Shown piece after piece: positions 23,483-26,820 of a DNA stretch of 64,000 nt. The position numbers were made by a program, and so were the translations under genes. The notes below the pieces were generated by a model. That model saw only the letters and a program-made list of their open reading frames with translations. It did not search any database and was not told where the DNA came from. Origin of the DNA: Coriobacteriia bacterium (lineage in GTDB: Bacteria > Actinomycetota > Coriobacteriia > Anaerosomatales > Anaerosomataceae); assembly GCA_030655755.1 (NCBI GenBank), contig JAUSOQ010000043.1, positions 62,001-126,000 of the forward strand. Direction: 5' to 3'. The first letter of the stretch is position 1; every line of letters starts with the position of its first letter.

Positions 23483-25783
23483 ATGAGACGTACGGTGAAA
23501 GTGCTCGCAATGCTGCTGGTAGCGCTCATGCTGCTGCCGGTCGTGGGCGCGTCTGCTAAGACAGCGCCCGGATCATCGGGTGTCGTGGTCATGGTGCTCG
23601 TGCCCTATGTGACGTGGGACGACATAGTCGGCGGCGCCATGCCTGAGACGAAGGATCTGGCGAGTGCCTTCGCTGTCGGCGATCTGAACACGCGTGCGAG
23701 CAGCCGCTTCACCAACAACGTCACCCAGGTGCACGCCGCGCTGACCCTATCAGCGTCGTCGCCGTCCGCATCCGACGTAGGCGCCCCCGCCGCATATTCA
23801 GTGACCGAACACTATGAGGGTGGCAGTGCGGCCGATGCGTATGACCGCATCATGGGCCGCAACGCCGGAGACAGCGCTGTCGTGTTTCTCGGCATACCCA
23901 GGATCGAACGCGCGAACGGTTCCCAGACGCTCGATACCGAGGTCGGGGCTCTGGGTCAGGCCGTGCACGATGCAGGCGGCATGACCGCTGCCATCGGCAA
24001 CTCAGACTACGGTTACGAGGTCAGGGAGACGTGGCAGAGCCGACCGTCCGCGCTTGTCGCGATGGACCGTGCAGGACTCGTGGATCTTGGTGATGTCTCG
24101 GCCAGACTACTCATGAGTGATGCAGACGCTCCGTATGGTGTCTCGACCGATGTCGAAGCCATGCGGTCCGCGTTCGTCGACGCGGTCCGTGTGATCGGGA
24201 CAGGCGACGGACCCGGACTCATCGTTGTCGATCCGGGCGACGCAGAGCGCGCACGGCGGTTCGCGACCGACGTGGCCGATGTGGTTGCTGTCGAGCATCG
24301 TATACGGGCGAACAAGAAGACCGATCAGATCGTCGCCATGGTGCGCTCGTCCATGCCATCGAATGCGACACTCGTGGTGCTCTCGCCTGTCCAACAGACG
24401 CCCGGATCCGGTCCTGTGGGGTTCGGCCCGATCATCGTGAGCGGTCCGGACTGGAGGGGCGTGATCACGACCTCCTCCACCCACCGCACCGGTATCACCA
24501 CGGAACTTGATGTCGCGCCAACGGTGCTCGCGACGCTCGGCATCGAGCGGCCGGTCGCGATGCTCGGCAACACCATGGCTTCTAACGGCTCACGTGCCTC
24601 GCTTGAGGAGCGCGTTGCTGAGCTGCAGTCGCTTGGCGCCACCGCGGTAGCGGTGGACACGGTCCGTCTCTTGGTCACGAACACCTACATCGCCCTCACG
24701 ATCGCGTTGTTGCTCGTGGGTACGGTGTTCATGCTTCGAATCAAACACCGCCATCTGACATGGGCGGGCAGGGCACTCGCGTTCCTGCGCAACGGTCTGC
24801 TCTTCATGTTGTGCGTTCCCGTGGCGAGTACGCTCATGTATCTTATCGTGCCGCGGCCCGACTCCTCGGCGCTCGTGCTTCTCCTCTTGCTGGGTGTCTC
24901 GGCAGTACTGTGGTTCGGCGCCATGCTGATCGCTCGTCGTTTTGGCCCCGGGCTCGCAGCCGGCGGTGTGGGTCTGCTCACAGCGTTCGTGCTCATCGTT
25001 GATCAGCTGTTCGGCGCACCACTGTCGTTCTCAGGTCTGTTCAGCTACTCGCCGCTGTGGGGCGCGCGCTACTACGGGATCGGCAACGAGGGGGCCAGCA
25101 TCCTGGTAGGTGGCGGACTCGTGGGTGTTGCGCTGCTCTTCGACCACTTCCGTGATGCGCGGTGGATCGCCGGGGTGAAGCGATGGGTGCTGCCGCTTTT
25201 CGGCCTGCTGATCGTCGCCATCTCGGCCGCGCCGTTCTGGGGTGCGAACGTCGGTGTCGCTGCGTGGGGTTTCGTTGCGTTCGGTATCGCATGGCTTCAG
25301 ATGAACGGTCACCGCGTGACCTGGAAGATGGCGATACTCGGCGCGATCAGCATCGCACTCATCGTCGGTGTGTTCTCGGTCTACGATCTCTCTGTGGCCG
25401 GCGAGGGTGGCCAGACGCACCTCGCCAGGGCCTGGCAAAGCGCCGAGGTAGGTGGCGCCCAGGCGCTTTGGACGATCGTGGCGCGCAAGGCCGAGACGAA
25501 CATGCGTGTTCTGCGGGCGTCGAACTGGTCATATCTCCTGTTCGCCATTCTCGGCTTCCTGGCGTACATGCGCTGGCGGCCACATGGCGACTTCGCTGAT
25601 GCCCTCAAACGCTATCCCAACTTCGCGATCGGCATGACTGCAGCGCTCTGGGGGAGTCTCGTCGGCTACTTCACAGAGGACTCGGGTATCGTGATACCCG
25701 CGCTCGTCATGCTCTACGTCGCAGGCGGCATACTCTACCTCATGCTCACCGATGCGCGTACGGAGTCGGGGGAGGTCGTGTGA
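23483..25783 (+). CDS. Polytopic membrane protein with a degenerate alkaline-phosphatase-like outer domain
   Basis: 766 residues from the ATG at 23483 (GGAGGA ribosome site 5 bases before). A cleavable-looking signal (about residues 1-26, ending ASA) leads to a ~370-residue outer domain, then about 11 membrane helices (from about residue 395 on). The outer domain resembles the alkaline phosphatase/sulfatase fold: strands GLIVVDPGD and TLVVLSPVQQ and the stretch TELDVAPTVLATLGI, which in active enzymes follows the last metal ligands. The usual Asp-His metal ligands after the LVVLS strand are replaced by PVQQ, so it is probably not a phosphatase. No characterised homologue is recognised. It overlaps the next gene, an MraY-like transferase, by 4 bases, pointing to a joint role in making or moving a lipid-linked glycan. 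Confidence 0.7.
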   Translation: MRRTVKVLAMLLVALMLLPVVGASAKTAPGSSGVVVMVLVPYVTWDDIVGGAMPETKDLASAFAVGDLNTRASSRFTNNVTQVHAALTLSASSPSASDVGAPAAYSVTEHYEGGSAADAYDRIMGRNAGDSAVVFLGIPRIERANGSQTLDTEVGALGQAVHDAGGMTAAIGNSDYGYEVRETWQSRPSALVAMDRAGLVDLGDVSARLLMSDADAPYGVSTDVEAMRSAFVDAVRVIGTGDGPGLIVVDPGDAERARRFATDVADVVAVEHRIRANKKTDQIVAMVRSSMPSNATLVVLSPVQQTPGSGPVGFGPIIVSGPDWRGVITTSSTHRTGITTELDVAPTVLATLGIERPVAMLGNTMASNGSRASLEERVAELQSLGATAVAVDTVRLLVTNTYIALTIALLLVGTVFMLRIKHRHLTWAGRALAFLRNGLLFMLCVPVASTLMYLIVPRPDSSALVLLLLLGVSAVLWFGAMLIARRFGPGLAAGGVGLLTAFVLIVDQLFGAPLSFSGLFSYSPLWGARYYGIGNEGASILVGGGLVGVALLFDHFRDARWIAGVKRWVLPLFGLLIVAISAAPFWGANVGVAAWGFVAFGIAWLQMNGHRVTWKMAILGAISIALIVGVFSVYDLSVAGEGGQTHLARAWQSAEVGGAQALWTIVARKAETNMRVLRASNWSYLLFAILGFLAYMRWRPHGDFADALKRYPNFAIGMTAALWGSLVGYFTEDSGIVIPALVMLYVAGGILYLMLTDARTESGEVV

Positions 25784-26820
25784 ACCCGCTGCTCGCCGAT
25801 GCAGTCGCCGTGATCCTGGCAGTATTTGCAGGCTGGGTGTTGCCGTCCCTGGTGATCGCCGCGCTCGTCCCGTCCCTCGAAGAGGGGCGAGTGATGACGA
25901 ACTACCGCGGGAGATCGGTGTTCCTCGGACTGGGACTTTGCTGGATCGTATGGGCTATCGCCATCATGTTGGTGCGCGTCGTCTTGGAGGCTGTCGGTAC
26001 GATGTTCGCCGGGGTACCCGATGCGCTGTTCCATCTCTACTCTGGTGCGCTTGGTGTCGCATTCAGCGGGATGCCGCTGCTTCTCGTCGCGTTCGCCTTC
26101 GTGTTCGGTCTGGTCGACGACGTATTCGGCACGAGCGCCCATAAAGGCTTCGCCGGGCACTTGCATGCGCTGCGTGACGGCAAGTTGACCTCAGGCACGT
26201 TGAAGCTGTTCGGTATCGGCGTGGTCGCGATGTTCTACGGATGGTCTGCAAGCGCCCGGGTGATCGAGACCGGCATCGACGGGGCGGTCGACTTCCCGGC
26301 GCGGATCGGTGCATGGATCCTGGCGACGCTCGTGATCGGTCTATCCACGAACCTGTTCAATCTGCTCGATCTGCGGCCGGGTCGTGCGCTCAAATCGTAC
26401 GTTCTGTTCGTTGTACCGCTTGGGGTCGCCTTCGCTGCACGGATCCTCGCCAACTACGCGGAGTTCGCGGCCGGTGTCGGGGATGCTGTTGGTGCGGCGT
26501 CGGTCGTCGGTGTCAGCGAGCAGGTCGCCATGGTGCTCGTCAGTCTCGCGCTGTTGCTTGGACCTGTGTTAGCCGTCTGGCGCTACGACCTCGGCGAACG
26601 AGGGATGCTTGGAGACGCCGGCTCCAATGTCCTCGGCGTGATCGTCGGCTTTCTGCTTGTCGGCGTACTGCCCCTGTGGGGGTTTGCCGTGGCGGCTGCG
26701 GTGCTGCTCGTCCTCAACCTGGCATCTGAGCGGATCTCGTTCACCGCGATCATCGAGCGGACCGCGCCACTAAGGTGGTTGGATTCTCTCGGCAGGTTGA
26801 AGGAGGAGACCGAAGAGTAG
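25780..26820 (+). CDS. MraY/WecA-like membrane glycosyl-1-phosphate transferase with non-standard signature
   Basis: 346 residues, about 9-10 membrane helices. The PNPT superfamily motifs are recognisable but altered: GLVDDVFG (about 108-115, the DDxxx motif), [15 protein letters not shown] (about 190-204) where MraY has NLxDGLDGLA, and [11 protein letters not shown] (about 275-285) for GDTGSLxLG. The MraY histidine motif near the C-terminus is missing. It probably transfers a sugar- or similar 1-phosphate from a nucleotide donor to a polyprenyl phosphate, but the donor cannot be MurNAc-pentapeptide because a standard mraY is present at 46616. GTG start inside the stop of the preceding gene. 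Confidence 0.78.

Follow-up and report, generated by a model that had tools for sequence, protein, structure and literature searches.

Two overlapping genes of a Coriobacteriia bacterium, which we call A and B, encode membrane proteins that we consider, on balance, to be respectively the extracytoplasmic and the cytoplasmic enzyme of an undescribed lipid-linked glycan pathway, with B initiating the glycan, a neighbouring GT2 glycosyltransferase extending it and A finishing it outside. The genes lie in a stretch of 64,000 nucleotides (the window) from a genome of 2.1 Mb. They represent two unnamed membrane-protein families that are found in about one third of the sampled Actinomycetota and in Clostridia and that probably build an undescribed surface glycan. 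An earlier note on this DNA had put the pair forward as a candidate undescribed system, and this description has held: no Pfam or NCBIfam family accommodates A or B, and our literature search found no description of either. As single sequences, neither protein gave a useful match in Pfam, NCBIfam or the PDB. The features of the locus, in window coordinates, are the following.

18865 to 20079, forward strand: SteA, which matches the cytokinetic ring protein family NF040608 over its cut-off
20093 to 20983, forward strand: SteB-like protein, assigned by position and relatives, with no NCBIfam match over cut-off
20980 to 21672, reverse strand: GT2 glycosyltransferase, whose nearest named relatives, AglJ and PpgS, are both far below cut-off
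21669 to 23297, reverse strand: MurJ, the sole MurJ of the genome
23474 to 23479, forward strand: putative ribosome-binding site of gene A (GGAGGA), read from the sequence
23483 to 25783, forward strand: gene A, 766 residues, with a signal helix, an ectodomain of alkaline phosphatase (AlkP) fold and about 11 transmembrane helices
23576 to 24580, forward strand: outer domain of A, from about residue 32 to 366, with an alkaline-phosphatase superfamily fold
24602 to 25765, forward strand: membrane half of A (residues 374-761), with a profile resembling Wzy_C/WaaL
25780 to 25783, forward strand: four-base overlap (GTGA) between the stop of A and the start of B, read from the sequence
25780 to 26820, forward strand: gene B, 346 residues, PNPT fold (MraY/WecA superfamily), unnamed subfamily
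26116 to 26121, forward strand: catalytic DD of B (D113, D114), invariant
26368 to 26394, forward strand: DLRPGRALK loop of B, in place of DGLDGLA, with D197, P200, R202 and K205 invariant
26614 to 26616, forward strand: D279 in the LGDxG motif of B, aligned with the GDxG of MraY, invariant

Both genes are intact open reading frames, A running from the ATG at 23483 to 25783 and B starting with a GTG at 25780. They overlap, as the earlier note had said, and the four shared bases suggest that their translation is coupled.

The fold of B was recognised from family alignments and from structure prediction. A profile built from Coriobacteriia members only found no PDB sequence, whereas a two-phylum profile found the solved MraY structure 9zno with an E-value of 1.7e-4 and aligned the GxxDD, NLxD and LGDxG motifs. 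The AlphaFold model of B, computed with 15 sequences, has a pLDDT of 80.7, and its best 30 PDB matches in Foldseek are all MraY or DPAGT1 (probability 1.00, with modest TM-scores of about 0.4-0.5). The proposal that B keeps the PNPT frame is thereby borne out. When the B family was compared by hhalign with proteins of its relatives, it scored 96.5% against their WecA/TagO-like proteins and 85% against their MraY; comparison with a single MraY sequence gave no match, the link emerging only with deeper alignments. Seven of the 21 members in the two-phylum set match PF00953 directly, the best with an E-value of 2.5e-8. Across these 21 diverse members D113, D114, N191, N194, D197 and D279 are invariant, and the PNPT catalytic motifs DD, NxxNxxD and GDxG are all kept.

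What sets B apart is its presumed nucleotide-binding side. In known PNPT structures the loop DGLDGLA contacts uracil. B does not have the DGxDGLA pattern; the substitution by DLRPGRALK to which the earlier note had drawn attention is real and is conserved across the family, whose variants keep D..PGR..K or nearly so. The second absence claimed, that of the His motif, likewise extends to the family: neither HHH nor HIHHR is found in it, and both are seen in the relatives, in the MraY and the WecA-like sets respectively. Because the uracil-contact loop is replaced, the donor or the donor pocket of B would be altered, and B probably uses a donor, or a way of holding it, that differs from those of MraY and WecA. 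Since a search of B for the loop and the His motifs that mark the known subfamilies showed them to be missing, B should be filed, by its fold and catalytic motifs, in the PNPT superfamily as a subfamily of its own. It is moreover an extra PNPT enzyme, because the same genome encodes a separate MraY (46616-47668) and a canonical WecA/TagO-like enzyme (C61). B would extend the range of known PNPT active sites.

For A, AlphaFold (pLDDT 82.8) and Foldseek agree with the architecture first read from the sequence, namely a signal, an outer domain of alkaline phosphatase type and about 11 membrane helices. The signal helix is predicted at residues 2-21 and the membrane helices follow residue 374. The top PDB matches of the ectodomain are sulfatases, YejM/PbgA, LtaP and iPGM (probability 1.00), and the best 50 Foldseek matches listed for A all belong to the alkaline phosphatase superfamily, that is, to the ectodomain. 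A thus has the superfamily fold and lacks the metal-binding Asp/His set, including DHG: in 28 full-length homologues there is not one conserved His column and no DHG motif, and several Asp residues and a T-x-R-x-G...D motif are kept. This alignment supports the suspected loss of the metal ligands. In several homologues the ectodomain is shortened or missing and the membrane half is retained; the ectodomain is the variable part of A and the membrane half its conserved core. The emphasis that had been placed on a phosphatase-like protein consequently stands for the fold of the ectodomain but not for the conserved core, which resembles Wzy/WaaL enzymes.

This likeness was found by profile comparison. 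All eight positions of A that are invariant in Actinomycetota, Clostridioides and Acetoanaerobium (R529, G532, N535, G587, H646, D733, S734 and G735) lie in the membrane half, and all are predicted to be extracytoplasmic from the helix pattern and the positive-inside rule. The membrane half found no match among PDB sequences. Compared by hhalign with the Wzy_C proteins of relatives it scored 77.5% in local and 91.2% in global alignment, with RYYGIGNE placed on the R...FGNPN segment; jackknifes lowered the local score to 14-68%, and the scale is uncalibrated for single comparisons, Wzy reaching 34-66% against its own reversed profile. The decoys run against A (MurJ, SteB, GT2, PyrG, MraY, WecA, SEDS, PMT_2 and reversed profiles) gave about 2% or less, and SEDS and PMT_2 were rejected as homologues of A on these values. 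We take the kinship of the membrane half with Wzy/WaaL as a strong lead, not proof.

The GT2, MurJ, SteA and SteB neighbours named in the earlier note are all present, and the SteA gene with an adjoining SteB constitutes a SteAB system. Among relatives the genes are usually arranged as RecN-SteA-SteB-GT2-[MurJ]-[A]-B-PyrG; A and MurJ are missing from several loci, so that the core is SteA-SteB-GT2-B. The clostridium Acetoanaerobium noterae (Bacillota) has this core as well, within ArgR-RecN-SteA-SteB-GT2-B-DUF3866-NUDIX-XerD and with A elsewhere (ArgR and NUDIX assigned from the sequence by eye), which counts in favour of the reading preferred here. The GT2 gene is found repeatedly beside B, or beside A when the latter is unlinked, and in some actinomycetes an unlinked A still adjoins GT2 and GT87 enzymes. 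Two loci carry additional genes between GT2 and A: L090 has a GT4 and a PMT_2 gene, and L086 has another GT2 together with genes of similar appearance. Both probably represent more complete glycan clusters and should be informative about the substrates. A further locus (L091, genome G420) has two tandem A homologues, in ORFs of about 1070 aa, immediately 5' of B.

Some homologues stand in other surroundings. In Clostridioides difficile the A homologue lies two genes after disA; the record concerned (L107, NZ_CP149745.1) comes from a plasmid collection and carries the chromosomal ctsR-mcsA-mcsB-clpC-radA-disA region. Similarly, the 2.6 Mb Acetoanaerobium record (L106/L108, NZ_CP154629.1) is filed as a plasmid and looks like a chromosome. 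The viral-contig scan was empty. In one group (L114) the unlinked A has as Pfam-identified neighbours a D-Ala-D-Ala ligase, an aminotransferase, ParB, ParA, RsmG and Jag, genes that are typical of the region around the chromosome origin and give no functional hint. In the window's own class, one genome (G067, family f18; L116, 741001-761000 of contig C1) keeps A without B or SteA, near a CoaBC-like gene and a gene for a metallopeptidase with choline-binding repeats. Two loci of a Streptomyces-like family with genomes of 6-10 Mb (f37; L110 and L111) retain a shortened match to B, flanked by RecN and PyrG, and have neither SteA nor A; in one genome of this family a GT4 glycosyltransferase gene adjoins B.

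We surveyed 397 Actinomycetota genomes for B (E below 1e-20) and A (E up to 1e-6). Each was found in 136 genomes, the two together in 123, B only in 13, A only in 13 and neither in 248, as raw counts uncorrected for shared ancestry. By family, A and B occur together in 42, B alone in one and A alone in two; in family f37 B is accompanied by neither A nor SteA, and among the genomes listed for families f17-f19, which belong to the window's own class, SteA and B are absent, as is A except in G067. The neighbourhood survey that the earlier note had called for therefore shows a co-occurring pair, often unlinked, and not a local oddity. Coordinates were available for 110 genomes. In 48 of these the two genes lie within 12 kb of each other, in seven they share a contig but are widely separated, and in 55 they are split between contigs; some of these splits are only assembly breaks, so that fragmented metagenome-assembled genomes inflate the unlinked count. 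Adjacency as the sole cause of the co-occurrence was rejected, many pairs being unlinked. B is also associated with SteA: both occur in 128 genomes, B only in seven and SteA only in 26 (again uncorrected for shared ancestry, and omitting one genome in which B matched only in part), and 110 of the 112 pairs on the same contig lie within 12 kb. Many of the 26 SteA-only genomes are large, high-quality genomes from one family (f42), which we read as Mycobacteriales. They fit the remark that mycobacteria do without the pair; B seems to be absent from both mycobacteria and corynebacteria.

From these data we infer that both proteins are enzymes, acting in sequence. B would move a phospho-sugar from a nucleotide sugar onto undecaprenyl phosphate, and the neighbouring GT2 (with GT4, PMT_2 or GT87 in other lineages) would add sugars. 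After the glycan-lipid product had been flipped by a carrier, A, acting like Wzy or WaaL, would polymerise it or attach it to an acceptor at the outer face, where the metal-less ectodomain may bind glycan or lipid. SteA and SteB would perhaps couple the pathway to cell separation. The suggestion that the genes make, modify or export a polyprenyl-linked glycan is in this way upheld for the glycan role, which draws support from B's PNPT fold and conserved catalytic residues, from the co-occurrence of A and B and from the GT4, PMT_2, GT87 or second GT2 genes near A or B in other lineages. It is not upheld for a dedicated export by the adjacent MurJ, a function we rejected because the genome has only this one MurJ, which is then the ordinary lipid II flippase.

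The pair could instead belong to a known wall-polymer pathway that has gone unrecognised, B being a fast-evolving TagO/WecA-type enzyme with ordinary UDP-GlcNAc chemistry and A a divergent O-antigen polymerase or ligase. The hhalign scores, which place B nearer to WecA/TagO than to MraY, the leaning of A to Wzy_C and the extra glycosyltransferase genes at some loci all agree with this, but the genome already has its canonical WecA/TagO-like enzyme and four Wzy_C matches, and the DLRPGRALK loop is not drifting, its core being unchanged in two phyla. Wzy enzymes tend to differ according to the polymer, whereas A has invariant motifs and a conserved partner. We consider this explanation possible, though doubtful, and retain an undescribed glycan pathway as the preferred reading.

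The link to SteA raises another alternative. SteA and SteB together make up a cytokinetic complex that activates RipA-type hydrolases (PMC6705760, PMC12977500). SteA has a predicted carbohydrate-binding pocket, the C. glutamicum protein is stabilised by UDP or GDP, SteAB in Clostridia lies downstream of Spo0A, and the UDP- or GDP-containing ligand of SteA was left open (PMC12977500, mBio 2026). Neither paper (PMC6705760, PMC12977500) mentions glycosyltransferase genes alongside SteAB. With B linked so tightly to SteA, the two membrane proteins might be a pseudo-enzyme and sensor pair, B binding but not converting a nucleotide or lipid-linked precursor, A sensing glycan or lipid outside, and both reporting precursor status to SteAB, in the manner of the inactive YejM/PbgA in LPS synthesis. 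The stabilisation of C. glutamicum SteA by UDP or GDP (PMC12977500) would suit such a pair, as would an ectodomain that has no recognisable metal site and counts YejM among its closest solved folds, and the replaced substrate loop and His motif of B. However, none of the catalytic Asp residues of B varies, a constancy that is not required of pseudo-enzymes. B can be retained where SteA is missing, and so, in some genomes, can A; many A genes lie a long way from the SteA locus; and glycosyltransferases accumulate at the loci. A sensor pair is therefore unlikely.

For the glycan pathway that we prefer, the linkage to SteA/SteB suggests coordination with cell separation, and it is the one observation that points, perhaps, to a septal role of A and B. 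It offers a concrete lead on the SteA ligand and makes it possible to test how wall precursors and cell separation are connected. We find it tempting, if improbable, to go further and see SteAB as the regulatory arm of the GT2-B-A glycan pathway, SteA reading the donor of B in its UDP- or GDP-bound state so that septal peptidoglycan is cleaved only during synthesis of the lipid-linked glycan; B would then carry a new nucleotide-binding loop and A would be a new Wzy-like class with a built-in ectodomain sensor.

The B-SteA linkage may also reflect an old conserved gene order and not function. The NAD kinase-to-XerD stretch is conserved over long distances. That the whole arrangement is inherited housekeeping order, with A, B and SteAB functionally uncoupled, is nonetheless very improbable, as the co-occurrence of A and B extends to unlinked pairs and A outside the SteAB locus still keeps its GT2 neighbour in several genomes. 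Scarcely credible, finally, is that A is an LtaS- or GPI ethanolamine-phosphate-type membrane phosphotransferase decorating the glycan of B: the AlkP fold and the signal-anchored ectodomain followed by many transmembrane helices, a layout that resembles PIG-N-type enzymes, fit, but the conserved His and the DHG metal motif are absent from the 28 homologues, and the membrane half stays where the ectodomain is shortened or lost.

Among known systems, B compares best with WecA/TagO (PF00953), with which it shares the fold, the DD, NxxNxxD and GDxG motifs and the 96.5% profile match; it lacks DGLDGLA and HIHHR and has instead the D..PGR..K loop and a conserved C-terminal D335/R339, and most members of its family, including that of the window, fall below PF00953 detection. 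With MraY it shares the PNPT fold and the order of the catalytic motifs, but HHH is absent and the loop altered, so that the substrate-binding loop and His motif of known PNPT enzymes are both missing. The membrane half of A has in common with Wzy/WaaL (PF04932) an aligned RxYGxGN segment, about 11 transmembrane helices and an invariant Arg and His predicted outside; unlike them, A is below Pfam detection, bears an AlkP-fold ectodomain and has GAN, THLGR-like and (E/N)DSG as motifs of its own. That ectodomain fold is shared with YejM/PbgA and LtaS-type proteins, and YejM too has lost its metal site; in A the order is reversed, the ectodomain preceding the 11 helices, and a sequence relationship was not detected. 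As to SteAB, the window locus has the SteA and SteB-like genes, and has them next to GT2 and B.
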